Positions 49,610 to 63,304 of a stretch of DNA of 64,000 nucleotides are shown here, one piece after another. The stretch is from an uncultured Mycoplasmatota bacterium (lineage in GTDB: Bacteria; Bacillota_I; Bacilli_A; Izemoplasmatales; Izemoplasmataceae), in the NCBI GenBank assembly GCA_913062645.1, contig CAJXVW010000001.1, positions 372,001-436,000 of the forward strand. The letters are read 5' to 3'. The first letter of the stretch is position 1, and each line of letters opens with the position of its first letter. The position numbers and the translations under genes were made by a program. A model generated the notes under the pieces. That model made no database searches. It was not told where the DNA came from and saw only the letters and a program-made list of their open reading frames with translations.

Positions 49610-50926
49610 TTACTTGTAGGTGTCATCAAGATACTGGGCTTCAAAACCATCACTGAAGACGATTTGATCGTCCATGGTATACCAGATCGCTTCAAGGTTG
49701 TCGATGCCGTTGACGAACGCCAGTCCATCAATGAGCGGCATCGTGAAGATCGCCGTCGAATAGATGTCGGCCAGCGCCGGATCGTCGGTGACGATGCTGA
49801 CGGATCGGCTGTAGCGCTCCGGCATCAAGGTGTTGGGGTTGATGATGTGATGGTAAATTTCGCCGTCGACTTCGTAATATTGTTGGTAATCGCCGCTCGT
49901 GACCAACTGGTCGCCAGCGCTCAGATAGACAGTCGCGTAATAACTGGTTTCAAAGGTCGGATCGGTAATCGCCAGCAGGAATTTGCCGTTTTCCCTTGTC
50001 GGGTGCGTACCGCCGATTGAGATGTTGCTTTCTCCGTTATTGAGAAGATACCCATGCAGATTCAGACCATCGAGGTACTCGATCAAAACCCTGGAAATGA
50101 AGCCTTTGGACATGCCACCGAGATCAAGCGACATGCCTGATTCCATCGTAATCGTGTGGTTGGTTTCATCCATCGTTATGCCGGCGGGATCAGTGAAGGC
50201 GTTTCTTGCCTGCAACTGTTCCATCGGCGGAACCTCGCAGACAGGATCAGTGAAGTTGGTAAGACATGATTCACGATAATCATGCCACAGCAACAGAACG
50301 GGTCCGAGGGCGATATTGAACAGATCATCGACCTCATCTTGATGATCGAGAGCGAATTGGATCATGTCGAACAATGGTTCGTCAATCACGTGAGTTGCCG
50401 TCGGATCGTCGTTGATCGTTTTCACATTCGTGACGTTATTGTAGTTGTTGTACTTGTCGCTGAGTTTGTGATAGTAGTCGAGTAGCAATTCAACATTGTC
50501 GAAGATGTTTGCAACAGCACCATTGTACGTGTCACCTTGGTAGTAGATGCGGAGTTTGACAACGGTATGCAGATACTGTGTCCAGAACACCTGGCATTCG
50601 GTGAGATCGGTGCCATCGATTACCGTGCATCCGTCTTCTCGATAATAGACGGTACGCGTGAGCGTCCGGACGTCCCCTTCATAGTCAAGAGTATACGTCA
50701 CCGTATAGTCTCCAGCTTGCGTCGGATCGATGTCGCTGTCAATCGTAACATACTCGGACAGGTCCTCGTTGTTGACCCTTGCCAAGAAACCTTTTTCAAC
50801 ATAATCAGAATCAACAGTATACGATACTTCTGATTCCCCGATTAAGTCAAAAATAAGTTCTTTACTGCATGCGGTCAAAGTAGTTGTGGTAATTACAATG
50901 AGTGCGATAATGATGAATTTCTTCAT
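49610..50926 (-). CDS. apbE: FAD:protein FMN transferase (ApbE) lipoprotein with N-terminal Ig-like domain
   Basis: 438 residues. Signal peptide with lipobox LTAC. Residues about 25-100 look like a bacterial Ig-like (DUF5011-type) beta sandwich; the catalytic ApbE domain occupies about 105-438. Key motifs are DLGGMSKGF, and LVTSGDYQQYYEVDGEIYHH with INPNTLMPER after it, the FAD- and metal-binding loops. ApbE attaches FMN through a phosphodiester bond to Thr/Ser of RnfG, RnfD and FMN-binding lipoproteins. All these targets are encoded within 10 kb here. The extra N-terminal domain is uncommon; usual ApbE is about 330 residues. Confidence 0.92.
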   Translation of the reverse strand: MKKFIIIALIVITTTTLTACSKELIFDLIGESEVSYTVDSDYVEKGFLARVNNEDLSEYVTIDSDIDPTQAGDYTVTYTLDYEGDVRTLTRTVYYREDGCTVIDGTDLTECQVFWTQYLHTVVKLRIYYQGDTYNGAVANIFDNVELLLDYYHKLSDKYNNYNNVTNVKTINDDPTATHVIDEPLFDMIQFALDHQDEVDDLFNIALGPVLLLWHDYRESCLTNFTDPVCEVPPMEQLQARNAFTDPAGITMDETNHTITMESGMSLDLGGMSKGFISRVLIEYLDGLNLHGYLLNNGESNISIGGTHPTRENGKFLLAITDPTFETSYYATVYLSAGDQLVTSGDYQQYYEVDGEIYHHIINPNTLMPERYSRSVSIVTDDPALADIYSTAIFTMPLIDGLAFVNGIDNLEAIWYTMDDQIVFSDGFEAQYLDDTYK

Positions 50927-50975: not shown

Positions 50976-51002
50976 AAAAAAACTGGGGCAACCCAGTTTT
51001 TT
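50976..51002 (-). terminator. Rho-independent terminator of the minus-strand FMN lipoprotein gene
   Basis: AAAAACTGGG / CCCAGTTTTT stem with 4-base loop; on the minus strand it is followed by T. It overlaps the stop codon of the gene at 51001-51639. Confidence 0.85.
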
Positions 51003-51639
51003 AGCTACCGTAGTTTGCTTCGTGATAGGCAAGCAACTCTTTCATGACGCGGATCATGTTGTTGGTGGACACGCTGCTTCCGGTGTAGTCATCAATGAGA
51101 TCCTGATCATCGATTGTCACGGTATTGCTGATGCCGTGATAATCGCTGTTCTTGAAGACTTGAATGCCTTCCAGATCTTCGAGTGTTTTACCGATCAGCC
51201 AGGGAATGAATTCCGTTTCGAAATCATCCAATGTTTTGCCGGTGGGCGTCGGGTCGCTGTCGCCCCACATGCCGGCGGTATAGTGGCCATCTTCGCCATC
51301 GTGACCAAAGGAGATGGTGAGTAGCTCATTGGTGTTCAAATCGATTTCTACATAGGCAACCTGCCAGTAATTGACATCGGCGTTGCGGCAAGTACAGGAC
51401 AAGTACGTGACCTGGTATTTGACATAGTCGCGCAGTTTGTACTCGAATAAAATGTATGCGTTCTTGGTGGTTTCATCACCATGTCCATTGAGATGGGTGA
51501 ACGGCATGGCGTTGTCGGCAACGACACCGCCGTTATTGGTTTCTCCTGTCACACATTCCGGACCAACGCAGAGTTCGCCACAAGCGGAAAGGGTCACAAC
51601 GAAAACCAATGTGAGGAGCAGTAGGCTCAATTTTTTCAT
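51001..51639 (-). CDS. Lipoprotein with FMN-binding-like C-terminus
   Basis: 212 residues. Lipobox LSAC at residues 17-20 and two nearby cysteine pairs. The C-terminal half shows DDYTGSSVSTNNMIRVMKEL, which resembles the flavinylation motif D-x2-[ST]-G-[AS]-[ST] of FMN_bind domains, directly before the amphipathic helix that follows it in RnfG. It lies between apbE and a rhodanese lipoprotein, so it is likely a flavin-carrying surface protein. The domain is weakly conserved before the motif. Ribosome site AAGGAGG on the minus strand. Confidence 0.65.
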   Translation of the reverse strand: MKKLSLLLLTLVFVVTLSACGELCVGPECVTGETNNGGVVADNAMPFTHLNGHGDETTKNAYILFEYKLRDYVKYQVTYLSCTCRNADVNYWQVAYVEIDLNTNELLTISFGHDGEDGHYTAGMWGDSDPTPTGKTLDDFETEFIPWLIGKTLEDLEGIQVFKNSDYHGISNTVTIDDQDLIDDYTGSSVSTNNMIRVMKELLAYHEANYGS

Positions 51640-51734: not shown

Positions 51735-52559
51735 TCAGTTTATGATTAATGTTTCAATTAACGCCAACAGATCGTCGTCGAAGCCAAGTTCGTATTCGAC
51801 GATATCATGGCTGCCACTGGTATTGGCCGTCATCATGAGGTCGTAGAGTTCATTCATCGTCATCGGGTGTGTAACGATGAACTCTTCCAGTATGGTCAAC
51901 TGGTCATTGTAGTTCGTCAGACCATCGTAGAAGGATCCTCTCAAGGTGCGATTGTCGCTATCGACGATATCAAAACGGATTGACGTGATGTACTTTCCCA
52001 AATCCAGTTCACCGCTGACAAAATAGCGTCGGTGTGTCGTCTCACTGAGAAAATCAGTGTAGAACATATCGCCGTATCGGTAATCACCAGTACCCAAAAC
52101 CTTGTATTCTCCCAAATACTCATAAAATCCGCCCAAAGAGAAAACTCGTTCGTATCCAAGATGCCACAACGCCGCCTGTACATACTCGCTGCGCATGCAG
52201 CCGTCTGCATACAGGAAAATTGCTTTGTCTTGTTTGAACAATCGTTCAAGCTCGTACTGGTCAATGATCTGTGAGGGTTCGAACGCGAACGTGTCTGAGC
52301 GCTCGAACACCCGGTAGTCCAGATAATCGAAAAAGGGGATCTGTTCGAATCCGTCGATGTATCCGGCAGCAAACTTGGCATCGAAATTACGCAAATCAAC
52401 GTACTGAACATCGTCACGGTACATGTATTCGTCCAGATTCTCCATCGTGATCACAGTTTCAGCCGTAATCGGCAACGGTTCGTCAACCGGTTCTTCAACA
52501 CACCCAAGCAGGCTAATCAAAGCCATTGGAACGACCAGGTAGAGTAATCTTTTCATCAT
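51735..52559 (-). CDS. Rhodanese-like lipoprotein with altered active-site loop
   Basis: 274 residues. The signal peptide ends in a lipobox LLGC. Residues about 38-155 are a rhodanese domain (DDVQYVDLRNFD, YIDGFEQIPFFDYLDY), clearly paralogous to the protein at 60792. Its active-site loop reads YADGCMRSEYV where the paralogue has MCGSGTRAGYV, so the canonical cysteine position is alanine and a cysteine sits three places later. The C-terminal region corresponds to the FMN-binding domain of the paralogue but lacks a recognisable TGxT-type attachment motif. It may be a diverged scaffold or sulfur carrier. The start could be one codon later. Confidence 0.8.
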   Translation of the reverse strand: MMKRLLYLVVPMALISLLGCVEEPVDEPLPITAETVITMENLDEYMYRDDVQYVDLRNFDAKFAAGYIDGFEQIPFFDYLDYRVFERSDTFAFEPSQIIDQYELERLFKQDKAIFLYADGCMRSEYVQAALWHLGYERVFSLGGFYEYLGEYKVLGTGDYRYGDMFYTDFLSETTHRRYFVSGELDLGKYITSIRFDIVDSDNRTLRGSFYDGLTNYNDQLTILEEFIVTHPMTMNELYDLMMTANTSGSHDIVEYELGFDDDLLALIETLIIN

Positions 52560-52689: not shown

Positions 52690-52734
52690 GTAATAGGTTA
52701 TATTTTTTTATATACAACTAGAGAGGTGAACACA

Positions 52735-53088
52735 ATGACAACAAAGTCGCAAGACGTAAACGCGTTGTTCGAACAGTGGATTCTTGATGCCGAAACGCGT
52801 CTTCAGGAAGAAGACATGTTCACAAAAATCAAGAGTTATCTGGAAAGCACGCACCCCGAAATCTGCGGCAAGTGCATCCCCTGTCGCGACGGCGTTCCCA
52901 AGTTGGAACGATTGTTCGACAAGTACATCCAAGGCGAAGCGACGCTCAAGGACCTGAAGGAAATCGAGCGCATCGTATATAACCTCCGGGCAAGCCGATG
53001 CAGCGTGGGGCTCGACATTGGCAAGAACATGGAAGTCATACTCGAAAACAACTACAATGTGCTGTACAGCCCCGTGAAAAAATACTAA
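52735..53088 (+). CDS. NuoF/HydB C-terminal-type 4Fe-4S protein, stand-alone
   Basis: 117 residues. The ATG at 52735 follows AGAGGTG; an in-frame GTG overlaps that site. Residues 25-115 correspond only to the last, iron-sulfur domain of NuoF or hydrogenase HydB: HPEICGKCIPCRDGVPKLERL supplies three cysteines and ASRCSVGLDIGKN the fourth. The NADH- and FMN-binding modules that make up most of NuoF (about 430 residues) are absent. It should be a small electron-transfer subunit. As first gene of the hydrogenase-Rnf operon it may bridge the hydrogenase and RnfC. Confidence 0.83.
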   Translation: MTTKSQDVNALFEQWILDAETRLQEEDMFTKIKSYLESTHPEICGKCIPCRDGVPKLERLFDKYIQGEATLKDLKEIERIVYNLRASRCSVGLDIGKNMEVILENNYNVLYSPVKKY

Positions 53089-53103: not shown

Positions 53104-54804
53104 ATGGCGAAGATAACCATCAACGGACAACTTGTCAAAGTCAAAAAAGGTACGACCATCCTCAGTGCCGCCCGACAGCTGGGAATTGACATTCCGACGC
53201 TCTGCTTTCTCGAAGAGATCAACGAGATCGGCTTCTGCCGCATCTGCGTTGTCGAAGTGGAAGGCGAGCAGGATCTCATATCGGCCTGTAATACCGAGAT
53301 CACCAATGGCATGGTGATTCAAACCGACAGCGACAAAGTCCGCCAATCTCGTGAAGCAACCCTGCAACTACTGGCGTCCCGCCACCGTTTCGATTGCTGG
53401 CGCTGCCCGAAAGACGGCATGTGCGAGTTCTACGACTTGCTCAAGTCACATGACGTCGTCTTTGAAGAATTTGGTCCTGGAATCGGACGCTCGAGCGATC
53501 TGATTGCTGGCTCAGGTATTTCACAAGACCAGAGCAAATGCGTCCTCTGCAAACGCTGCGTGGCCGTATGCCAGAACGTCGTCACCGCCAACGTCCTGAA
53601 GTTCCGCGACGACGACGATCCGATGAATCCCATCGTCAGTCCGACCCCCGGTCTCGCGTTTGACGATGCCGGCTGCATCTTCTGTGGCCAGTGCGTCAAG
53701 GCCTGCCCCACCGGCACCCTGTTCGAAACCGATCACACCAATGACGTTCTCACCTTCCTGAGAAACAAGGACGATCATGTCGTGGTCCAACTCGATACCC
53801 GTGTCAACGGCGCCATCGCCGAGTCCTTCGGATACGACATCGACACCCCGTTCGAAGAAACGTTCGGCAAGACCGTCAAGGCTCTTGAACTGCTTGGCTT
53901 TGACACCGTAACGACACTCGATTACGGCGAGGACTACCACGCTCGCGCAACCGCCGAAGAGCTGTTGAAGCGATTGGAAGACAAAGACAACCTGCCTCTG
54001 TTCACGTCGAGTTGTCCTGCGTCTACGCGGTTCCTCGAACTGTATGAGCCCGAACGTCTCGATCACATCGCGACGGTCAAGTCGCCCCATATCCTCCAGG
54101 GTTCACAACTCAAACACAAGCTGCTGAAACAGAAACCAGCCAACACAAAGGTCGTCACGCTCAGCTCGTGCACGGCCAAGAAATACGAACGGACCAGAGA
54201 AGAACTTGTCACTGCCGGCGTCGCCGACGTCGATACGGCCCTGACCGTCCGTGAAATCACCAAACTGATGAAGCAAAAAGGCATCGCTTATCGCAATCTT
54301 GAAGCGGCCACGCCCGATCCCGCAGTCACCTCCGAACATGTTGCGGTTCAGGGCGGCGTCCTCGTTGCCGTTCTCAATGCGGCGCACCAGATCAAGACCG
54401 GCGAACCGCTCGCGGAACTCACGTTCAAGCATGTTCACGGCGAGAAGGAAAGCGATGGATTCATCGAAGAAGCTACCGTCCAACTTGGCGAAGCCAAACT
54501 CAATGTGGCTCGCGTCATCGGCGGTGCGGCCTTCAAGGAACTCTTCGCCCGATCGAACAAGAAGAACTACCATCTGATTGAGTTCCTGATGTGCCCCGGC
54601 GGCTGTCTCAATGGCGGCGGCATGCCGATACACAAAAACTTGACAACCCACGAGGTCATCGCTCGACGCGAAACGAGTTACTGCGACGGCGGAACCGATC
54701 TGCCCCTCAGCAACCCCCTGCACAATCATCTCGTCGACGACAACTTCGCCGATGATCCAAGCATTCATACCGGGTACTCGCAAAAAGAGTACCGGAAGGA
54801 ATAG
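53104..54804 (+). CDS. [FeFe] hydrogenase catalytic subunit with variant H-cluster pocket
   Basis: 566 residues. Modular layout as in Clostridium CpI: 2Fe-2S domain (CFLEEINEIGFCRIC to SAC, residues 1-80), His-ligated cluster HRFDCWRCPKDGMC, two 4Fe-4S motifs (CVLCKRCVAVCQ and CIFCGQCVKACP), then the H domain. The four H-cluster cysteines are present: C304 in L1 (FTSSCPAS), C356 in L2 (LSSCTAKKYE), C497 and C501 in L3 (FLMCPGGCLNGGGMP). The proton-relay cysteine of CpI (C299) is Ser303 here, and the L1 tryptophan and L2 methionine-proline are also replaced by serine-type residues. So it may be a slow, sensory-like or reversible enzyme. No HydEFG maturase gene is in the window. Confidence 0.93.
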   Translation: MAKITINGQLVKVKKGTTILSAARQLGIDIPTLCFLEEINEIGFCRICVVEVEGEQDLISACNTEITNGMVIQTDSDKVRQSREATLQLLASRHRFDCWRCPKDGMCEFYDLLKSHDVVFEEFGPGIGRSSDLIAGSGISQDQSKCVLCKRCVAVCQNVVTANVLKFRDDDDPMNPIVSPTPGLAFDDAGCIFCGQCVKACPTGTLFETDHTNDVLTFLRNKDDHVVVQLDTRVNGAIAESFGYDIDTPFEETFGKTVKALELLGFDTVTTLDYGEDYHARATAEELLKRLEDKDNLPLFTSSCPASTRFLELYEPERLDHIATVKSPHILQGSQLKHKLLKQKPANTKVVTLSSCTAKKYERTREELVTAGVADVDTALTVREITKLMKQKGIAYRNLEAATPDPAVTSEHVAVQGGVLVAVLNAAHQIKTGEPLAELTFKHVHGEKESDGFIEEATVQLGEAKLNVARVIGGAAFKELFARSNKKNYHLIEFLMCPGGCLNGGGMPIHKNLTTHEVIARRETSYCDGGTDLPLSNPLHNHLVDDNFADDPSIHTGYSQKEYRKE

Positions 54805-54815
54805 AAGGTGACCAC

Positions 54816-56036
54816 ATGATAACCGAATACCGACAATATCTCGATCCGAAGAAAGTCTGGATCCCCCTTACCGACGGCACCTTCAAACTGGCCAGTGTCC
54901 AAGTCGAACAAGACGACGCCGTCACGGCCGGACAAATCGTCGCCTACAAGTACAGCGGCAAATTGAAGACGCCGGTCCTGGCATCGATCACCGGCACCGT
55001 CGTTGGGTTCGAAGAACGTCTCGACCGTTTCAACAAATACGTGGATCACATCGTCATCGAACGATCCGATTCCAACCAGATGATCACCCATGAAGGCCTG
55101 GACGACGATGTCCCGGCGGCCATCATCCGACAGCGCATCGAAGACTGCGGACTCCGTCAGTTCAACGTCGACGGCCTCTATACCGACATTGCATTCGAAC
55201 GACCCATCAAGCACATTCTCGTCAATGCCATCTACGCCAATGAACCGTTCATCTCAACGGACTACGATTTCGTCAAGCAACACGCCGAGTTGATTGCGGA
55301 TGGCATCAAGCTGTTGCAACACGCCGCGCATGCTGAAACAGCCACGCTGATCGTCGACAAGTACATGGACGAGCAAACCTTGGAAGCACTTGGCAAAGCC
55401 ACCGTCGACAAAGGCATCGAGGTCGTGCAAGTCAACACCAAGCATGTCAACGGATGGGATTACCGCATTGCCAAACAACTGGTTGGCGAAACGATTTCTC
55501 CCAATCTCATCGACAATCAGATTCTGTACACGTCCGCCTATGCGGCCAAGCACATTCACGATGCCGTCCGCAACGGTCGTCCGCTCATCGAGCGTCAAGT
55601 CGCCATCACCGGTGATGCGCTCCGCGTCAACGTGCTCTACGACGTGCGTCTCGGCACGCGCCTCGAAGATCTCGTCGACGATCTCGGCGGATACGACGAC
55701 GGCGGCACCTACATGTGTCACGTCGGCAGTTTTCTGTCCGGCGAACAGGTCGCCGCGGATTCCTTCAGCGTTACCGCGACCGTCGACACCATCGATGTCA
55801 GCGCGTATCGCCAGGAACCGGAAGAAGTCTGCATCAAATGCGGCGAGTGCAACGACATTTGCCCCGCCGGCATCCTACCACAGAACATCATGGATGCGGA
55901 ACTCCGCAATGTCAACGCCCGCATCGTCGATCTGCATACCGACGAATGCATCGAATGCGGTTTGTGCAGTTATGTCTGTCCCTCGAAAATCAACGTACTG
56001 GAATGGGTGCGGCGTGCCAAACGCCGCGTCGGATAG
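54816..56036 (+). CDS. rnfC: RnfC-like subunit lacking the NADH/FMN-binding loop
   Basis: 406 residues, a little short for RnfC. Both C-terminal 4Fe-4S motifs are intact: CIKCGECNDICPAGILP (from C339) and CIECGLCSYVCPS. The N-terminal barrel-sandwich domain (AGQIVAYKYSGKLKTPV) is also present. The region that should hold the glycine-rich flavin/NADH loop (canonical GLGGAxFPTHxK) reads GLRQFNVDGLYTDIAFERP at about residues 112-130, only the later NEPFISTDY remaining like the canonical ECEPYxTxDY. The second nucleotide motif (YPxGxEKQL, NNVGTA) is lost as well, as is GGPMMG (here GGTYMC). So it probably cannot use NADH. It follows the hydrogenase gene by 11 bases. Confidence 0.9.
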   Translation: MITEYRQYLDPKKVWIPLTDGTFKLASVQVEQDDAVTAGQIVAYKYSGKLKTPVLASITGTVVGFEERLDRFNKYVDHIVIERSDSNQMITHEGLDDDVPAAIIRQRIEDCGLRQFNVDGLYTDIAFERPIKHILVNAIYANEPFISTDYDFVKQHAELIADGIKLLQHAAHAETATLIVDKYMDEQTLEALGKATVDKGIEVVQVNTKHVNGWDYRIAKQLVGETISPNLIDNQILYTSAYAAKHIHDAVRNGRPLIERQVAITGDALRVNVLYDVRLGTRLEDLVDDLGGYDDGGTYMCHVGSFLSGEQVAADSFSVTATVDTIDVSAYRQEPEEVCIKCGECNDICPAGILPQNIMDAELRNVNARIVDLHTDECIECGLCSYVCPSKINVLEWVRRAKRRVG

Positions 56037-56045
56037 GAGGAAACC

Positions 56046-57146
56046 ATGGAATTTACAATGAAAAAGCCACCTATCATCAGCAACCAGCAACGTTCCTACA
56101 AACGCTCCTTGAGCTTGCACATCTCACTCATCATCGTCAGTCTGACGGCGATTTTCACCCGTGCCTTCATTGCCGTCCCCGAGGGCGAATCATGGGTCCC
56201 CGACCAGATGTTCAAGACATTCTTGATGTTGTTCACGGGAGCGCTCGTGAGCGTCCTCATCGAACTCGTCTACTCGATCAGCGAAGGCACCAGTCAGGAG
56301 TTCAGCGAATATCGCCGGCTCGTCGATCCGATCAACACCGGGTTGCTCATCGCGCTGTTGCTTCCGACATCGACGCCGATGTATGTCCTGATTCTGGCCG
56401 TCGCCGTCGGCGTGTACGTCGGCAAAATCGTGTTCGGTGGTTATGGCTATTACATCTTCAATCCGGCCTTGGTCGGAGTGCTGTTCGCCACCATATCGTT
56501 CGCCACTCAGATTGAGTACGGCGACACACCGCTCGTGCTCTTGAAACAAGCGATTGAAGGCCAATCCTATAACTTTGAACTGATCGATCTCGTCCTCGGC
56601 AACTATGTCGCCGTGGCGATCGGCAGCACCAGCGTCATCGTCTTGGGTGGCGTGTTCATCTATTTGTCCATTACCCGTGTCATCGATCTGCGACTGAGCG
56701 GCACGTTCGTGCTGGCGATTCTCATTATCAGCGCAATCGTCGGATTCGTCAACTTCGGAGGTGCGATGTGGAACTACGTCTTCGTCAACATGATCACCGG
56801 CTTGACGATGTTCGGCGCCGTATTCCTCGTCGCCGAAACCGTCAGCAGCCCCACCTCACGGGAAGCGAAACTGATTTACGCCGTCGTGATCGCGATCATG
56901 ACGATGATGGTCCGGATTCTCGGAACCGAAGTCGAAGGCGTCGTCTTCGCCGTGCTTTTGGGTAACATGCTGGCGCCGTTCTTGAACCGTACCGTCACCC
57001 GCAGCAACAAGAAACTGTTCATTCAAACCAGCGTAATCCTCGCGGTGGTTGTGCTTCTCACCGGCTTCGTCCTTGGCTTCATCCTGCAAGGACGGTTGAT
57101 TGAAGCCTTCGACGCGATGATTCAATGGGGAGGGATGATCGCATGA
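56046..57146 (+). CDS. rnfD: RnfD membrane flavoprotein subunit
   Basis: 366 residues with about nine or ten membrane helices. RnfD/NqrB core: VDPINTGLLIALLLPTSTP, GYYIFNPALVG, LVLGNYVAVAIGSTS and MWNYVFVNMITGLTMFGAVFLV. The FMN attachment site, canonical S/TGATPL, reads YGDTPL here, so the flavin-bearing threonine seems kept but the preceding residues have changed. Ribosome site TAGGAGG. RnfD carries covalent FMN and riboflavin in the membrane. Overlaps rnfG by 4 bp. Confidence 0.92.
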   Translation: MEFTMKKPPIISNQQRSYKRSLSLHISLIIVSLTAIFTRAFIAVPEGESWVPDQMFKTFLMLFTGALVSVLIELVYSISEGTSQEFSEYRRLVDPINTGLLIALLLPTSTPMYVLILAVAVGVYVGKIVFGGYGYYIFNPALVGVLFATISFATQIEYGDTPLVLLKQAIEGQSYNFELIDLVLGNYVAVAIGSTSVIVLGGVFIYLSITRVIDLRLSGTFVLAILIISAIVGFVNFGGAMWNYVFVNMITGLTMFGAVFLVAETVSSPTSREAKLIYAVVIAIMTMMVRILGTEVEGVVFAVLLGNMLAPFLNRTVTRSNKKLFIQTSVILAVVVLLTGFVLGFILQGRLIEAFDAMIQWGGMIA

Positions 57147-59050
57147 AACCAGTAAAAATCGTCGTAATGCTCCTGGTTGTCGTGCTCGTCTCATCGGTTG
57201 GCGTATACTTTGTCGAAAGCATCACCACGCCGATCATTGAAGACCGTCGCGCCCAGGAAATCGAAGAAGCATTGCAAAGCATATTCCCCGCCATCGACGG
57301 AACCACCGACACCGTCACCTCGGACACCGACGTTGATTTCGGCACCACCGGAATTACCGACGTACTCGTCATCCGTGATGGCGACGACAATGTCAAAGGC
57401 TATGTCTACACCATGACCTTCCGTGGGTTCTCCTCGGAGATCATCTATCTGGTCGGCATCGACGCCGCCGGGGCAATCACCGGCTATCAGACGCTCCAGC
57501 AGAATGATACCGCCGGATACGGCGCGCAAATCGCCGACGAAGAGAACTGGACCCAGTTCACGGGCATGTCAATCGAGACCGCCGGCAACGGCGACTTCGA
57601 CGGACTGGCCGGAGCCACGGTCACGACCAACGCATGGAAGTCTTCCTTTGAAACCCTCTTCAACTTCCATCTCGACACCTACGGCTACACGCCGATGACC
57701 GACGAACAACTGCTGCTGCAGAAGAAGCAGACACTTGTCGGCAATGATCTCACCATCGAGTCCTACACGCCGGATCTCGCGCCGGGCGACTACGGCATCA
57801 CCGCCGTTGACGTCGCCACCGACGGCACGGACAATCAGGCGGTCATCTATACCGTTGAGTTCGTTGGGTACAACGCCACCGGCAGCAACACCTATCTGAT
57901 TGCGTTCGACCTGGCGACCAATGAAGTGCTTGGCGGAACCGCCCTGTCGAGCGACGACACCGAAGGATTCGGTGCTCTAATTCTGGACAATGCCAACTGG
58001 GCGGATTTCCCCGGAATGAGCCTTGAAGATGCCGAAGACGGCAACTTCGACGGCATCGCGGGAGCGACCGTTACAACGCTGGCCTGGAAACAAAGTCTGG
58101 TCGACGTCGGCATGTTCCACCGCGTCGAGTTTCTCGGTGAAACGCCACGCACCGTCGAATCGCTGAGCGAACTGCTCTTCCCCGGAGCCGACCGCTTCAC
58201 CAACGTCACCAGTGAAAAGCCCTTCGGCACAATGATCGAGGGCGTCTATGACGTGTTCGACGATCTCGGTGCCAAACTGGGAACCGTCTACCACGTGCAG
58301 ACCATCGGTGCCAGTTACGCCGAACTCACGACCATCGAGTTCCTGATCGGCATCGACACCGCGGACAACTTCACCGGTTTCTACATGCTCGACGACTCGG
58401 AAACGCCGGGACGCGCCGACGCGTTCTACGCCGACGATTACGGCGATACCATCGAGGGTGTCGCGATCACCGATGATTATGAACTGGACGCCGTTGGCGG
58501 AAGCACGATTACGTACAACGTGATCACCGCGGCCATCGACGAGGTCGTCCATTATCATCAGACCAAATACATTCTCCTTCCGGAACGCATCATGGATGCA
58601 CTTGCGGAAGCATACCCCGGCGCCGTCTCGTTCGAGAGTGTCTACAGCGACTACGACTTCGACGCCACCATCAACAACCTGTACGCCGCCAAGGACGGCA
58701 GCGATGCCGTCATCGGTTACGTCTACTACGCCACCGCAACCGGATACTCCGGTAACATCATTGAATTCATGTGGGGCGTCGACAACAGCGGTGTCGCCCA
58801 GCAACTCTACATCATGAACGACACCCAGTCCTGGGACGACGCGACGTACGCCGGATACGACGGCGCGTTCGGTACCGATTTCAACACATCGACCTGGCTT
58901 GATCTGTTCGAGGGAGTGACCTTCCAGTCGATCCTCGACACCGAAGTCATCGATGCCGCCGGCGTGTCGACCACAACCGGTGGCATGAAAGTGTCGCTCG
59001 AACGAATCGCCCAATATCACGCCGATCAAAACGTAGGAGGTGCTAGCTGA
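57143..59050 (+). CDS. rnfG: Giant RnfG with four FMN-binding modules
   Basis: 635 residues, more than three times the usual RnfG (about 190). One N-terminal membrane anchor (about 5-25) is followed by four consecutive FMN_bind domains outside the cell. Their attachment motifs are GLAGATVTT (Thr159), GIAGATVTT (Thr309), AVGGSTITY (Thr455) and AAGVSTTT (Ser609), spaced about 150 residues apart. The first two are canonical and nearly identical in sequence; the third and fourth diverge but keep Gly and Thr/Ser. The ATG at 57143 follows GGGGAGGG; the frame extends 6 codons further up through that site. Four covalent FMN would make a flavin wire. Target of ApbE. Confidence 0.92.
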   Translation: MKPVKIVVMLLVVVLVSSVGVYFVESITTPIIEDRRAQEIEEALQSIFPAIDGTTDTVTSDTDVDFGTTGITDVLVIRDGDDNVKGYVYTMTFRGFSSEIIYLVGIDAAGAITGYQTLQQNDTAGYGAQIADEENWTQFTGMSIETAGNGDFDGLAGATVTTNAWKSSFETLFNFHLDTYGYTPMTDEQLLLQKKQTLVGNDLTIESYTPDLAPGDYGITAVDVATDGTDNQAVIYTVEFVGYNATGSNTYLIAFDLATNEVLGGTALSSDDTEGFGALILDNANWADFPGMSLEDAEDGNFDGIAGATVTTLAWKQSLVDVGMFHRVEFLGETPRTVESLSELLFPGADRFTNVTSEKPFGTMIEGVYDVFDDLGAKLGTVYHVQTIGASYAELTTIEFLIGIDTADNFTGFYMLDDSETPGRADAFYADDYGDTIEGVAITDDYELDAVGGSTITYNVITAAIDEVVHYHQTKYILLPERIMDALAEAYPGAVSFESVYSDYDFDATINNLYAAKDGSDAVIGYVYYATATGYSGNIIEFMWGVDNSGVAQQLYIMNDTQSWDDATYAGYDGAFGTDFNTSTWLDLFEGVTFQSILDTEVIDAAGVSTTTGGMKVSLERIAQYHADQNVGGAS

Positions 59051-59688
59051 TGGCCCGCAAACAGAAATCATTAAGTGATGTCTTCACCGCTGGCTTCTTC
59101 AAGCAGAATCCGGTCTTCGTACAATTTCTCGGCATGTGTCCGACGCTCGCCGTCACCGGCAGTGTCGAAAGCGCGATCGGGATGGGCGCGGGCGTCATCT
59201 TCGTCCTCGTGTTGTCGAATCTGATCATCTCGCTGATCCGCAGCGCCGTACCGCGCGAAGTCCGCATTCCGATCTACATCGTCGTCATCGCCTCGTTCGT
59301 GACGATGCTGGAAATGCTGATGAACGCATTTGTCCCCGATCTGGCGGCCCAGCTGGGAACCTTCCTCAGCTTGATCGTCGTCAACTGTCTGATTCTCGGC
59401 CGCGCCGAAGCGTTCGCTTCCAAAAACGGACCCGTGCGCAGCGTGCTGGACGGACTCGGCATGGGCATCGGGTTCACCGGTGGCATCACCTTGCTGGCGT
59501 TCTTCCGTGAACTGCTCGGCAAGGGATCAATCACCATCTGGGGCGATTTCGCCTTGAATCTGATTCCCAGCGACTTCCAGATCTCGATTCTCGTGGCTCC
59601 TGCCGGCGCGTTCCTCGTGTTCGGCATCCTTGTATCGCAGATCAACAAAATCAAACTCCGCCGTGCGGAGCAAGGCGAGGTGGCGTAA
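59050..59688 (+). CDS. rnfE: RnfE membrane subunit
   Basis: 212 residues, six membrane helices. The two half-membrane cysteine motifs that share a 2Fe-2S cluster with RnfA are present: FLGMCPTLAVTGS near residue 29 and VVNCLILGRAEAFAS near residue 115. The length and sequence are normal. The start overlaps the rnfG stop by one base, behind GTAGGAGG. It lies in canonical order (C-D-G-E-A-B). Confidence 0.95.
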   Translation: MARKQKSLSDVFTAGFFKQNPVFVQFLGMCPTLAVTGSVESAIGMGAGVIFVLVLSNLIISLIRSAVPREVRIPIYIVVIASFVTMLEMLMNAFVPDLAAQLGTFLSLIVVNCLILGRAEAFASKNGPVRSVLDGLGMGIGFTGGITLLAFFRELLGKGSITIWGDFALNLIPSDFQISILVAPAGAFLVFGILVSQINKIKLRRAEQGEVA

Positions 59689-59691
59689 TCC

Positions 59692-60303
59692 ATGGAATTC
59701 ATCGCAATCGCATTTGGCGCCATTTTCGTCAATAACGTCGTACTCAATCAGTTCTATGGTCTGTGCCCCTTTCTAGGGGTATCAACCAAGAAATCCAGCG
59801 CCTTCTCGATGGGCATGGCCGTTACTTTCGTCATCACGCTGTCGACGATGATTGCCTACACCATCTACAATCAGGTGCTCGTACCCAACAACATCGAATA
59901 TCTGTCCACGATCGTCTTCATCCTGGTCATCGCATCGTTCGTCCAGCTCGTGGAAATGGTCATCAAGAAATTCTCCAGCGCAATCTACAGCGCGCTCGGC
60001 GTGTATCTCCCGCTGATCACAACCAACTGCGCCGTGCTCGGGGTCGCCATCGACGTGACCGTCAACGGCACCGGTTCGCAGAAGTTGCTGATGGCCTCGG
60101 GCGTCGCACCGACCTTCTGGCAGGCGACCGTCTACGCCCTCGGCATCTCGCTCGGCTATGCGATCGTCATCTTCCTGTTCTCGGCGATTCGTGAAGAAAT
60201 GGACGCCTACCCGATCAAGAAGAACTGGCAAGGCATTCCGATCGCGCTCATCACCGCGTTCATCATGGCGATGATCTTTAGCGGATTCGGAGGGGTGATC
60301 TGA
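59692..60303 (+). CDS. rnfA: RnfA membrane subunit
   Basis: 203 residues, six membrane helices. Cysteine motifs YGLCPFLGVSTKK near residue 25 and TTNCAVLGVAID near 112 pair with those of RnfE. The family's FILVIASFVQLVEM helix is present. Normal length. Three bases separate it from rnfE and one base overlaps rnfB, so the membrane core of the complex looks complete and functional. Confidence 0.95.
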   Translation: MEFIAIAFGAIFVNNVVLNQFYGLCPFLGVSTKKSSAFSMGMAVTFVITLSTMIAYTIYNQVLVPNNIEYLSTIVFILVIASFVQLVEMVIKKFSSAIYSALGVYLPLITTNCAVLGVAIDVTVNGTGSQKLLMASGVAPTFWQATVYALGISLGYAIVIFLFSAIREEMDAYPIKKNWQGIPIALITAFIMAMIFSGFGGVI

Positions 60304-60608
60304 TGGTTGTCGTCATTGTATTGGCCGTTGTCATCAGTGTCGTCCTCGCGCTCCTCTTGTGGGGCGCCAGCGTGGTCTTCCATGTCGAGGAGGATCCGCG
60401 GCTGCAAGACATCATCGATTTGCTTCCCAATCAGAACTGCGGACTCTGCGGCAACCCCGGTTGCAAGGGGATGGCCGAGGCGATCCTCCGCGAGGACGCC
60501 AAACTGTCACAATGCAAGCCGGGCGACCAGGCAATGCGCGAAGACATTCGTGATTACCTGGCCGAGCATCCCAACGAAGCCGGCGAGTACGTGAAAGTCA
60601 AGATGTAA
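60303..60608 (+). CDS. rnfB: Minimal RnfB: membrane anchor plus one 4Fe-4S motif, no ferredoxin domain
   Basis: 101 residues, against 180-330 in usual RnfB. One membrane helix (about 2-24) is followed by the conserved LLPNQNCGLCGNPGCKGMAE and a fourth cysteine in SQCKPGD, the four-cysteine cluster of the RnfB hydrophilic domain. The two or more C-terminal CxxCxxCxxxCP ferredoxin clusters are missing. The gene ends with a normal stop codon followed directly by a terminator, and no cysteine-rich sequence follows in any frame, so this is not a fresh frameshift. Ferredoxin docking at RnfB is therefore doubtful. Confidence 0.92.
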   Translation: MVVVIVLAVVISVVLALLLWGASVVFHVEEDPRLQDIIDLLPNQNCGLCGNPGCKGMAEAILREDAKLSQCKPGDQAMREDIRDYLAEHPNEAGEYVKVKM

Positions 60609-60791: not shown

Positions 60792-61664
60792 TTACTCAGC
60801 TTGGCCGATTGCTTCTTCGAAGGCCAGTTTGAGACCATCAATCGATACGGTGACACCGGCGAAATCATCGAAATGTCCATCGGTGATTGCCCATGCATCG
60901 TCCCAACCTTGGTTGTCGAGGATGGCTTCAGCGAGGGTGTTCGCCTGGGTGAACCAGAAGTTTTCGCCGTCGGGGCTGGTATCCATGTCATATCCTTCGC
61001 CGAGAGCTTGCTTGGTGGTCCAGTATGAGTTGTCGGTCTCAGGATCGCGATCCGGATCTTTTTCATACAGGGCGTCGAGGATGACTTCTTCGATGCCGCC
61101 TTTTTCGTTGATGACGACGGTGGCCATGTAGCCGGAGTCTTCATCAAGACCGAAATAGGTGCCCGGGGTGTAGTCGCCTTTGACAAGCGGGTTCAGGGTG
61201 TATGATCCGTCGCCGAGGACTTTGTTGTCGCCCGTGTAGTCGGCGATGCCGCCAACGTTGTAGACGTTCTCGTATCCGAGTTCTTCGAGAGCGGCCATTA
61301 CATAGCCGGCACGGGTGCCGCTGCCGCACATCAAGAAGATCGTTTTGTCCATGTCGAACAGGGCGGTGAGGCCAGATTCGCTGAGGATTTCATCGGCTTC
61401 GAATTCCCAGTCGCCATCGCGAACGAGGATGCCTTCATACTCAAGATAATCGAAGAACGGGATGAATTCAAATCCTGCGATATATCCGGCGTTCATTTTG
61501 TCGTCGAAGTTGCGCAGATCAACATACTGGACGTCGGATCTACCGAGGTACTCATCGATGTTCTCCATGTCGACTTCGTCGGGAATGTCAGGCAGGTTGT
61601 TGCCGCATCCGGCGAGAGCCAATGTCAGAGCAAATGCTACAAACAATAATGCAAACTTTTTCAT
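60792..61664 (-). CDS. Lipoprotein with rhodanese and FMN-binding domains
   Basis: 290 residues. Lipobox LAGC (Cys20). Residues about 38-150 are a rhodanese domain with intact active-site loop MCGSGTRAGYV. Residues about 160-290 are an FMN_bind-like domain: strands around GYMATVVINEKGGIEEV and then DDFAGVTVSIDGLKLAF, whose AGVT matches the FMN-attachment site with a Thr. ApbE could flavinylate it. The combination suggests a surface protein that handles both sulfur and electrons, perhaps persulfide or polysulfide reduction. It is a paralogue of 51735-52559 and is driven by a perfect consensus promoter. Confidence 0.87.
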   Translation of the reverse strand: MKKFALLFVAFALTLALAGCGNNLPDIPDEVDMENIDEYLGRSDVQYVDLRNFDDKMNAGYIAGFEFIPFFDYLEYEGILVRDGDWEFEADEILSESGLTALFDMDKTIFLMCGSGTRAGYVMAALEELGYENVYNVGGIADYTGDNKVLGDGSYTLNPLVKGDYTPGTYFGLDEDSGYMATVVINEKGGIEEVILDALYEKDPDRDPETDNSYWTTKQALGEGYDMDTSPDGENFWFTQANTLAEAILDNQGWDDAWAITDGHFDDFAGVTVSIDGLKLAFEEAIGQAE

Positions 61665-61731: not shown

Positions 61732-61930
61732 ACCCTTTTCAAGGGTAAAAACACTTTTGTTAGGCCGAAAACCAATGATTAGCACACGAATTATTTCATT
61801 CTTTTTTTAGTTCGTGTAGAAACAAAAAGGACATAGATATATCGCATCTGATTTAATGAAAATAAACGAAATATTGACAATAAAAAAAGCAAGTCCAATA
61901 ATCAAAAATTACAACGATTTTGATGGGATG

Positions 61931-61939
61931 TGTTATAAT
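61931..61939 (+). promoter_or_regulatory. Extended -10 promoter of the NusG-II protein gene
   Basis: TGTTATAAT, a perfect extended -10 element, 28 bases ahead of the ATG at 61967. Confidence 0.55.
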
Positions 61940-61966
61940 GAATTAACAAGTTCATTGGGTGATATT

Positions 61967-62395
61967 ATGCGAAAATCGGATGTCATTCTGATCGCCGTGG
62001 TTCTGATTGTCGCTGTCGTAAGTTTCTTCGCGTTTCGCGAATTGACCAACGACAGTGCATTGGTCGATGGAACGGCCATCGTCTTCTATAATGATGAAAA
62101 AATACTCGAAATCGATCTTGCCGATGGTAATTATAAAGTTTTTAATGAGGATCGGATTTTGTCGATTGACGAAGACAACAAGTTGTATCACGTCGAAGGA
62201 TCGAACCCTTACGGCGTTCTTATTGAATACCAGGACAACCGGGTTCGCGTCATCGACGAGGAGAGTCCGCAACACATCTGTCGACAACAAGGCTGGACCA
62301 ACTCGCCATTGAATCCGCTGACGTGTCTGCCCAATAACATCATCATCGTCATCGAGGCCAAAGACGAGGATCTGCCCGATGACATCACCGGATAG
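61967..62395 (+). CDS. Membrane-anchored NusG-domain-II-like protein
   Basis: 142 residues. One membrane anchor (about 5-25) and an extracellular beta domain: GTAIVFYNDEKILEIDLADG, VRVIDEESPQHICRQQGW and CLPNNIIIVIEAKDE are the marks of the NusG_II (PF07009) family. The two cysteines around the ICRQQGW element are typical. The ATG at 61967 has GGGTGA ahead and lies behind the promoter; the in-frame extension upstream does not. Such proteins neighbour Gx transporters, ApbE and FMN-binding proteins and probably belong to the flavin electron system. The biochemical role is unknown. Confidence 0.82.
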   Translation: MRKSDVILIAVVLIVAVVSFFAFRELTNDSALVDGTAIVFYNDEKILEIDLADGNYKVFNEDRILSIDEDNKLYHVEGSNPYGVLIEYQDNRVRVIDEESPQHICRQQGWTNSPLNPLTCLPNNIIIVIEAKDEDLPDDITG

Positions 62396-62667: not shown

Positions 62668-63279
62668 TCATTGATATGCCGTTATCGTCTTAATGACTTG
62701 AATCGTGGCGACTCCCCTGGTTTGATCGGCCATCCAATTGCGGAACTCTTTCACATCATCGGTGGCGAGTTGCACGAAGTAGTTCACGTTCTCATCGTAC
62801 TCGGTATTGACGAGCGTGTAACGGTCCCTGAGTGGCTGCTCGACCGCTCCGATCAAATCAAACGGTATGGTTACCTTGAGCAGTTGAAACTCTCGGAGCC
62901 AGACGTATCTCGCCTCCTCGAGCGTTTCCGAGATGCTTTTGCCGTAGGCGCGAGCCAAGCCACCGGCACCCAGTTTGATGCCACCGTAATAGCGAACGGA
63001 AACAGCCAACACGTCGGTCAGGTCGTTTTTGAGCAGCACCTCGATCATTGGTAAACCGGCGGTTCTGGTTGGTTCACCATCGTCAAAATACTTTTGCTCA
63101 TTCTGCGCATGCCCGATCACGTACGCATAACAGTGATGCGTCGCATCGGGGTGTTCGTCCTTGATGCGGCGATATGATCTCATCGCTTCATCCTTGCTGC
63201 GAACGGGGATCAGATGGCCGATGAACAAGGACTTGTTCACCAGGATTTCATGACGAACGGTAGTTTGGATGCTTTTCAT
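62668..63279 (-). CDS. YigZ/IMPACT family protein
   Basis: 203 residues from the Met at 63279, which has GGTGAT ahead. The Met at 63297 overlaps a perfect -10 box and is rejected. N-terminal IMPACT domain: KSLFIGHLIPV, HHCYAYVIG, KYFDDGEPTRTAGLPMIEVL and VRYYGGIKLGAGGLARAYG. The C-terminal part (about 135-203) is the DUF1949 ferredoxin-like domain. The family is linked to translation control under stress; the bacterial role is unproven. Confidence 0.9.
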   Translation of the reverse strand: MKSIQTTVRHEILVNKSLFIGHLIPVRSKDEAMRSYRRIKDEHPDATHHCYAYVIGHAQNEQKYFDDGEPTRTAGLPMIEVLLKNDLTDVLAVSVRYYGGIKLGAGGLARAYGKSISETLEEARYVWLREFQLLKVTIPFDLIGAVEQPLRDRYTLVNTEYDENVNYFVQLATDDVKEFRNWMADQTRGVATIQVIKTITAYQ

Positions 63280-63295
63280 GGTTATCACCATCTTC

Positions 63296-63304
63296 ATTAT
63301 ACCA
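63296..63304 (-). promoter_or_regulatory. Extended -10 promoter of the YigZ gene
   Basis: On the minus strand TGGTATAAT is a perfect extended -10; no clear -35 box. Confidence 0.55.

Follow-up and report, generated by a model that had tools for sequence, protein, structure and literature searches.

Within the 64,000 bp stretch of DNA analysed here (the window; positions 372,001 to 436,000 of contig CAJXVW010000001.1, from an uncultured Mycoplasmatota bacterium of the Izemoplasmataceae), an rnf operon was found whose RnfG protein, judged from its sequence, almost certainly consists of four tandem FMN_bind modules on one membrane anchor. We propose, with a probability of roughly 0.5, that the operon encodes a derived form of the Rnf complex, belonging to Izemoplasmatales-type bacteria, which is not linked to NADH and which would route low-potential electrons outward by way of a flexible chain of flavins. 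The genome from which the window was taken measures 1.99 Mb and consists of two contigs.

Four FMN_bind modules in RnfG

The reading frame of RnfG is free of internal stops, and the protein was assigned to RnfG by the curated NCBIfam model TIGR01947 (120.9 bits, cutoff 102). The modules are arranged as follows:

57143..59050, + strand: RnfG with four FMN_bind modules, 635 amino acids
57233..57700, + strand: module D1, residues 31-186, acceptor T159, motif DGLAGATVT
57701..58156, + strand: module D2, residues 187-338, acceptor T309, motif DGIAGATVT
58157..58600, + strand: module D3, residues 339-486, acceptor T455, motif DAVGGSTIT
58601..59047, + strand: module D4, residues 487-635, putative acceptor S609, variant motif IDAAGVSTT

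A preliminary description of this DNA had named four flavin mononucleotide (FMN) modules in RnfG and had proposed a domain search with FMN_bind (PF04205). This search recovered three stretches (42.7, 22.0 and 37.9 bits in the genome scan, cutoff 22); D4 was invisible to the Pfam model in both the protein search and the whole-genome scan. All four were found with a single-domain hidden Markov model (HMM), which was made from six RnfG/NqrC-type proteins (three from loci in the same genome, three from the same order) and contained no module of the window. It matched residues 2-172 with 83.3 bits, 225-333 with 28.0 bits, 367-475 with 20.0 bits and 509-632 with 16.9 bits, while the best of 200 shuffled sequences reached 5.3 bits and the reversed protein scored below 0. 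The single-domain HMM is free of the circularity of the iterated module HMM used to count modules in orthologues, which includes the sequences it scores and gives inflated E-values.

Pairwise alignment of the modules gave scores above those of 1000/1000 shuffles for five of the six pairs; for the weakest pair, D2-D4, the score was reached by 3 of 1000 shuffles. In profile-profile comparisons with single-domain RnfG, the D3 and D4 families were matched with probabilities of 97.6 and 97.7, respectively, with the acceptor motif columns in register. An AlphaFold2 (AF2) model of RnfG, made from 13 sequences, had a mean predicted local distance difference test (pLDDT) score of 79.4 and a predicted template modelling (pTM) score of 0.44. 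The same order of strands recurs four times in the model, long helices begin at residues 159, 309, 456 and 609, and the pattern of confidence would fit beads on a string. The best structural neighbours of the model were RnfG structures 7zc6 and 9eri (Z 16.0 over D1); NqrC 4u9s matched D2 (Z 13.7 over residues 185-333), and the neighbours also included single-domain crystal structures from multi-FMN proteins (8p2b, Z 7.7; 8p2a, Z 6.8). HMM, pair alignments, profile-profile comparison and modelled strand order thus all agree with the four modules described earlier.

Acceptor sites and flavinylation

The predicted acceptors T159, T309, T455 and S609 are spaced by 150, 146 and 154 residues. A motif check confirmed these positions as first described, and the division into two canonical and two variant sites is borne out as well, with D3 a mild and D4 a clear variant. 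The strict acceptor motif occurs three times in RnfG, at sites 1-3 (3/4 modules), compared to a mean of 0.007 and a maximum of 2 in 2000 shuffles.

The motifs were compared in 16 rows of RnfG orthologues, in 15 of which the last module was readable (one row ends at a contig edge). At the acceptor position of this last module a Ser or Thr was present in all 15 readable rows, mostly as GV[ST], and the Asp of the motif was in its usual place in 14, the exception being the window. Because GV[ST] is common in the last RnfG modules and the lipoprotein Rhod2 (see below) has D(x3)GV in 10/10 rows, it looks like a local dialect of the motif, perhaps accepted by the local ApbE. Flavinylation of RnfG is plausible, since the one PF02424 match of the genome lies 6.2 kb upstream. 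At least three of the modules are very likely flavinylated; that all four are has a slightly better than even chance.

Distribution and layout of the locus

Of 90 genomes searched in the order, 18 had the derived RnfC at E <= 1e-60, and these belong to a single family. A contig scan with two RnfC peptides yielded 15 loci, 13 of which are labelled Izemoplasma/Izimaplasma, Mycoplasmatota, Tenericutes, Bacilli or Bacillales; a further locus was L079, from an uncultured Mollicutes (38% identity). Locus L080 from the same scan was dropped as a ferredoxin-only match. The complex may also be present in other phyla.

For the comparisons below a set of 18 rows was used, consisting of the window, L043, L046, L048 and L066-L079. 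The rows do not represent 18 independent lineages, L070 and L073 being close, and it is a coincidence that their number equals that of the genomes above. Left out of the set were L042, L044, L045, L047 and L049-L052, whose contigs are equal in length to those of L075, L066, L071, L069, L076, L077, L073 and L078, respectively. The RnfG proteins of L066 and L068 are cut by contig ends, and the contigs of L074 and L079 stop before rnfG.

In all 18 loci the rnf genes are joined by a fragment of nuoF and by a gene for a group-A [FeFe]-hydrogenase-like protein (HydL). Within the reach of the contigs, the layout in relatives is apbE, ORF212 and rhod1 on the opposite strand, followed by the NuoF fragment, hydL, rnfC, D, G, E, A and B, and then rhod2. 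Extra genes separate rnfB from rhod2 in L070 and L078, and one gene separates apbE from ORF212 in L067. RnfG has three modules in L070, L073 and L078, five in L067 and L076, and four in most of the orthologues.

Sister rnf loci of the order (L056:8152-9432, L058:7739-9193 and L059:2802-4430) encode proteins of 426 to 542 amino acids at the RnfG position. The RnfC loop discussed below is intact in L056 and L058; L059 ends before rnfC, and its RnfG-position protein has several GAT-type motifs. To judge from these loci, multi-module RnfG may occur more widely across the order than the hydrogenase-linked operon does.

Genes just past rhod2, at 61856-62395 (+) and 62668-63297 (-), recur beside the cluster in several relatives. 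The G + C content of the window (51.6 percent) is high for the group; the counterpart locus in G002, of the same genus, has 41.2 percent.

RnfC without the Gly-rich loop, and the other core subunits

The locus contains all six rnf subunit genes, of which RnfA, B, C and D score under the curated NCBIfam cutoffs. Those other than rnfG are:

54816..56036, + strand: RnfC without Gly-rich NADH/FMN loop, two [4Fe-4S] motifs
56046..57146, + strand: RnfD without DxxxGAT covalent-FMN motif, aligned Thr present (PF03116 3.3e-54)
59050..59688, + strand: RnfE (TIGR01948 232 bits, cutoff 213.4)
59692..60303, + strand: RnfA (TIGR01943 211.4 bits, best family, under cutoff 229.3)
60303..60608, + strand: short RnfB, transmembrane helix and one iron-sulfur (FeS) domain, no ferredoxin domains (PF04060 5.5e-11)

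In the alignment, neither the Gly-rich loop of RnfC (GLGG/GMGG), which we take to be the holder of FMN and NADH, nor ECEP was found in any of the 18 rows, the window included. The eight Cys of the two [4Fe-4S] clusters are retained in 18/18. As a control, solved RnfC structures and the sister RnfC proteins of L054, L056-L058 and L061 were inspected, and these carry the Gly-rich loop; ECEP, too, is present in solved RnfC and canonical relatives. In the accessible part of PMC11889175, a likeness is drawn between the flavin domain of Acetobacterium woodii RnfC and the FMN site found in complex I and HydB. The complex studied here is probably not NADH-linked.

The covalent-FMN motif DxxxGAT of RnfD is missing at its position in 18/18 rows, with the Thr retained in 17/18; L075 has SGAT a few residues downstream of the usual place. 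No fused NAD-binding domain (PF00175) was present on RnfD, on which Pfam shows PF03116 only. RnfB is 101 amino acids long, with PF04060 only, and has the same short form in relatives. We considered this truncation as the novelty of the complex and rejected it. An RnfB of about 100 amino acids is also encoded in L056, L057 and L058, which have an intact RnfC loop, and in T. maritima (accessible text of PMC9588780); being common to the sister loci and T. maritima, the short RnfB is not special.

Two further Rnf-like clusters were noted on contig C1 of the same genome. In L063:5830-9657 (~605.8-609.7 kb) an RnfD/NqrB-like gene and a gene for a single FMN_bind protein directly follow oxidase-type genes, which we take to be cytochrome bd oxidase subunits; this is possibly a two-subunit module of Rnf-like type, associated with a bd oxidase. 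The third cluster of the genome, L062:6521-10362 (~1366.5-1370.4 kb), comprises genes of RnfD/NqrB, FMN_bind, RnfE and RnfA type, ends in a ferredoxin-reductase-like gene, and by inspection looks like nqrBCDEF.

A hydrogenase-like module in the operon

The two genes upstream of rnfC are:

52726..53088, + strand: C-terminal fragment of NuoF carrying only an N3-type [4Fe-4S] motif, FMN/NADH domain missing (PF10589 1.7e-13)
53104..54804, + strand: HydL, group-A [FeFe]-hydrogenase-like, position 299 Ser (TSSCPAS) (PF02906 6.1e-55)

The NuoF fragment comprises 120 amino acids, and all four Cys of its N3-type motif are present in 18/18 rows. HydL is closest, among solved structures, to HydA1 7q4v (E 6.8e-94) and the Clostridium hydrogenase. 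The ligands of its FeS chain (15 Cys and 1 His) are retained in 18/18 rows, and in the window the cluster-ligand Cys of the three loops are present at positions 304, 356, 497 and 501 (own numbering). Cys299 (Clostridium numbering) of [FeFe] hydrogenases serves in proton transfer as a proton relay. It is present in 7/18 rows, including L079, which was scored as positive for its TSCSPGW, the same as in 7q4v; another residue is found in 11/18, Ser in the window. With the proton-relay Cys gone, the HydL of the window is more likely an electron conduit. The FeS ligands of HydL and the NuoF fragment are kept in 18/18 despite a non-Cys residue at 299 in 11/18, a pattern to be expected if such a conduit is conserved. 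In the lineages with intact loops, H2 could be a donor or a product.

The idea that the number of flavin motifs trades off against an intact hydrogenase active site was discarded: there was no clean relation in the 16 RnfG rows, where L071 and L076 combine intact loops with 3 strict motifs each, and L077 has altered loops and 1.

These data bear on the possibility that the complex is an Ech-like hydrogenase-Rnf, in which electrons would pass from ferredoxin to RnfB, then through RnfA/E, G, D and C to HydL, with H2 made and ions pumped (or the reverse), the extra RnfG modules being secondary. The seven loci in which Cys299 stands in otherwise largely intact HydL loops speak for it, as does the loss of the NADH end of RnfC in 18/18, and HydA-type genes with intact motifs also occur elsewhere in the same genome (L065, and one of two in L064). 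However, in the window the loops read TSSCPAS and SSCTAKK, Cys299 is missing from most loci, and L075 keeps the operon with nearly all active-site loop residues of HydL gone. Since three extra flavin modules are also left unexplained, we regard this alternative as unlikely.

As a separate observation, L064:5740-9284 (contig C2, ~424.7-428.3 kb) holds a full NuoF-type gene followed by a gene for a HydA-type protein without the H-cluster cysteines (SSSAAGW, APGIDRK, PGGGTA); the second NuoF-HydA pair, with intact motifs, adjoins it.

ApbE and putative flavolipoproteins

Four genes for envelope proteins flank the operon, all on the minus strand:

49610..50926, - strand: ApbE flavin transferase, lipoprotein-type, N-terminal immunoglobulin (Ig)-like domain (PF02424 4.1e-49, PF16403 1.3e-10)
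51001..51639, - strand: ORF212, lipoprotein, putative flavinylated domain marked by DDYTGSSVSTNN and CTC
51735..52559, - strand: Rhod1, rhodanese-type lipoprotein, loop Cys displaced (PF00581 4.3e-6)
60792..61664, - strand: Rhod2, lipoprotein combining a rhodanese domain with a probable FMN_bind-type domain at the C-terminus (DDFAGVTVS) (PF00581 5.7e-6)

The ApbE at 49610-50926 is the sole PF02424 match in the genome. Its N-terminal PF16403 is a surface Ig-like domain. In ORF212, the motif residues (like D.[FY][AT]GSSVSTNN, plus an invariant CTC) are invariant in 12/12 rows; profile matches to FMN_bind are weak, with sub-cutoff Pfam hits in 2/12 members and an hhalign probability of 27.6. The C-terminal profile of Rhod2 matched PDB entry 2kzx with an E-value of 8.5e-11, the consensus DDVAGVT lying on DAISGAT in register, and Pfam FMN_bind gave only sub-cutoff matches, in 3/10 members of the family. 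The AF2 model of Rhod2 was poor (mean pLDDT 52.8) and was not used.

Rhodanese lipoproteins flank the operon in relatives too, and this raises the possibility of a sulfur-reducing respiration, with electrons passing to extracytoplasmic thiosulfate or polysulfide on flavinylated rhodanese lipoproteins. Rhod2 would suit this role, as the Cys and Arg of its CxxxxR rhodanese loop are retained in 10/10 rows and a probable FMN_bind-type domain is present. Moreover, growth of the related strain zrk13 (Xianfuyuplasma coldseepsis) was stimulated by thiosulfate, according to the accessible text of PMC8397711. Against this, the loop of Rhod1 (YADGC.RS) has Ala at the position expected for the catalytic Cys and a Cys three residues further on in 15/15 relatives, according to the same part of PMC8397711 the sulfur genes of zrk13 were not obviously up-regulated by thiosulfate, and rhodanese-like domains have many roles. 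We consider a sulfur-reducing respiration quite improbable.

Proposed working of the complex

In the derived, outward-directed Rnf that we favour, low-potential electrons would come in from the cytoplasm, being either delivered by ferredoxin to the single-cluster RnfB or led through the FeS chain of HydL and the NuoF fragment to the two clusters of RnfC. RnfA/E or RnfD would carry them across the membrane to D1, whose FMN may act in the normal shuttle role of RnfG; by analogy with known Rnf structures, D1 would hold the usual place of RnfG between RnfD and RnfA/E. From there D2, D3 and D4, joined by flexible links, could relay them step by step to flavinylated lipoproteins, Rhod2 and perhaps ORF212, and on to an extracytoplasmic acceptor. 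Both the electron donor (ferredoxin at RnfB, or whatever reduces HydL) and the terminal acceptor are inferred. The net flow is most simply outward, because NADH binding has apparently been lost and three extra flavin modules as well as putative flavolipoproteins are located outside; we give net outward transfer about an even chance, and rhodanese lipoproteins as the terminal partner are a doubtful proposition. The most specific version is an NADH-free hydrogenase-Rnf hybrid, in which electrons from H2 or ferredoxin would run through the HydA-like chain on RnfC or through RnfB, and out by 3-5 covalent flavins to flavinylated rhodanese lipoproteins. This version is tentative and, taken as a whole, unlikely.

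Several observations weigh against an outward flavin chain. Site 4 of RnfG (IDAAGVST) is off-consensus, with the Asp one residue late and Val replacing Ala, and strict motifs are found in 0/3 modules of RnfG in L070 and likewise in L073. The modules need not all bear flavin, given that D4 is off-consensus and that other modules lack the motif in some orthologues. The AF2 model has a pLDDT below 50 in the motif region of D3, and no independent structural match was obtained for D3 and D4, as the VIA-align results of the RnfG model cover mostly residues 2-183 and 187-327. Because they do not stand out there, sequence profiles and the recurring order of strands are the basis for assigning D3 and D4. 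Flavin binding by other residues of RnfC is conceivable. With RnfA, E and B retained, the complex may continue to run the usual Rnf circuit in its inward half, and export would possibly be minor. Finally, no terminal reductase was identified.

Some earlier views of the locus have to be revised. The "flavin wire" of the preliminary description is unproven, a pTM of 0.44 suiting flexible beads more than a rigid wire. The four modules are not the oddity of one protein, since orthologues hold 3 to 5 and the class was described in 2021 (accessible text of PMC8238504). To treat the complex as an ordinary Rnf with an added tail is to miss the loss of the RnfC loop and the RnfD motif and the hydrogenase-like module within the operon. 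A functionally ordinary ferredoxin-to-NAD Rnf, in which the extra RnfG modules would be neutral duplicates or spacers and mostly flavin-free, is very improbable: it would agree with the retention of six rnf genes, the variation in module number and the several modules with broken motifs, but not with the RnfC loop missing in 18/18, a separate Rnf-type locus (L063) in the genome and strict motifs at three of the four window sites.

If the outward flavin chain is real, Rnf would be a modular platform with exchangeable ends for electron input and output (loss of the NADH site, gain of a hydrogenase-type FeS module, addition of an external flavin chain), and wall-less-type bacteria would have a cytochrome-free route of electron export; in the hybrid version, this export would be ion-coupled, with the hydrogenase site kept or lost by lineage. 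The orthologues would offer a natural series of 3, 4 and 5 modules for measuring the reach of covalent flavin chains. One ApbE, together with RnfG sites GAT, GST and GVS and lipoprotein sites GVT and GSS, makes a defined set for studying the motif tolerance of ApbE.

Comparison with known systems

No description of a hydrogenase-linked Rnf hybrid was found in the literature on Izemoplasma/Izimaplasma, RnfC-hydrogenase associations, multi-flavinylated RnfG, rhodanese flavinylation and extracellular electron transfer, with subscription papers mostly outside reach and with the supplementary lists of PMC8238504 as a place where such clusters may be included. The accessible parts of PMC7301438, PMC6256511, PMC12174285 and PMC6349859 do not describe it; strain ZiA1 is reported there (PMC6256511) to have two Rnf complexes, Nqr and hydrogenases.

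Canonical Rnf complexes of A. woodii and C. tetanomorphum (PMC11889175 and PMC9588780, as far as accessible) have homologues of the same RnfABCDGE subunits, and D1 of the window matches their RnfG (Z 16.0). They differ in having one FMN on RnfG, an NADH-binding RnfC, a polyferredoxin RnfB and covalent FMN on RnfD. In the accessible text of PMC9588780 the T. maritima-type RnfB has the first Fe-S domain only, like that of the window, the likeness concerning this one feature. The FeS chain and H-domain of HydL are homologous to those of HydABC-type [FeFe] hydrogenase (HydA1 7q4v), and the NuoF fragment corresponds to the C-terminal cluster domain of NuoF; in contrast to that enzyme, the window has no FMN/NADH domain of NuoF, its HydL lacks Cys299, and the genes are placed with rnf. 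The NQR/RNF-like two-subunit export system, in the available sections of PMC8238504 and PMC11334425, likewise has an RnfD-type subunit that lacks the covalent-FMN motif, and outward flow has been proposed for it, whereas the window has all six rnf genes and an RnfD without a fused NAD domain.

Proteins with several covalent flavins have been described before. The purified proteins SaFMN3 and CbFMN4 carry three and four covalent FMN, respectively, on tandem FMN_bind domains when made with ApbE; they are not RnfG, their motifs are canonical, and the accessible part of PMC10339131 describes no rnf operon for them. A beads-on-a-string picture of multi-FMN proteins is given in the part of PMC11334425 that is open. 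Meheust et al. (2021; PMC8238504, accessible text) reported up to 13 predicted sites each in multi-flavinylated proteins, and multi-flavinylated RnfG in rnf clusters, for which a second path to outside acceptors was proposed. The RnfG of the window resembles the latter in lying in an rnf cluster and having more than one FMN_bind domain. Features of the window that are not mentioned in that text are the hydrogenase-like subunit, the missing RnfC loop and the putative rhodanese-FMN lipoproteins. As a putatively multi-flavinylated protein, RnfG is a new member of a class that is already known; what was not found in the literature covered here is the complex that surrounds it.

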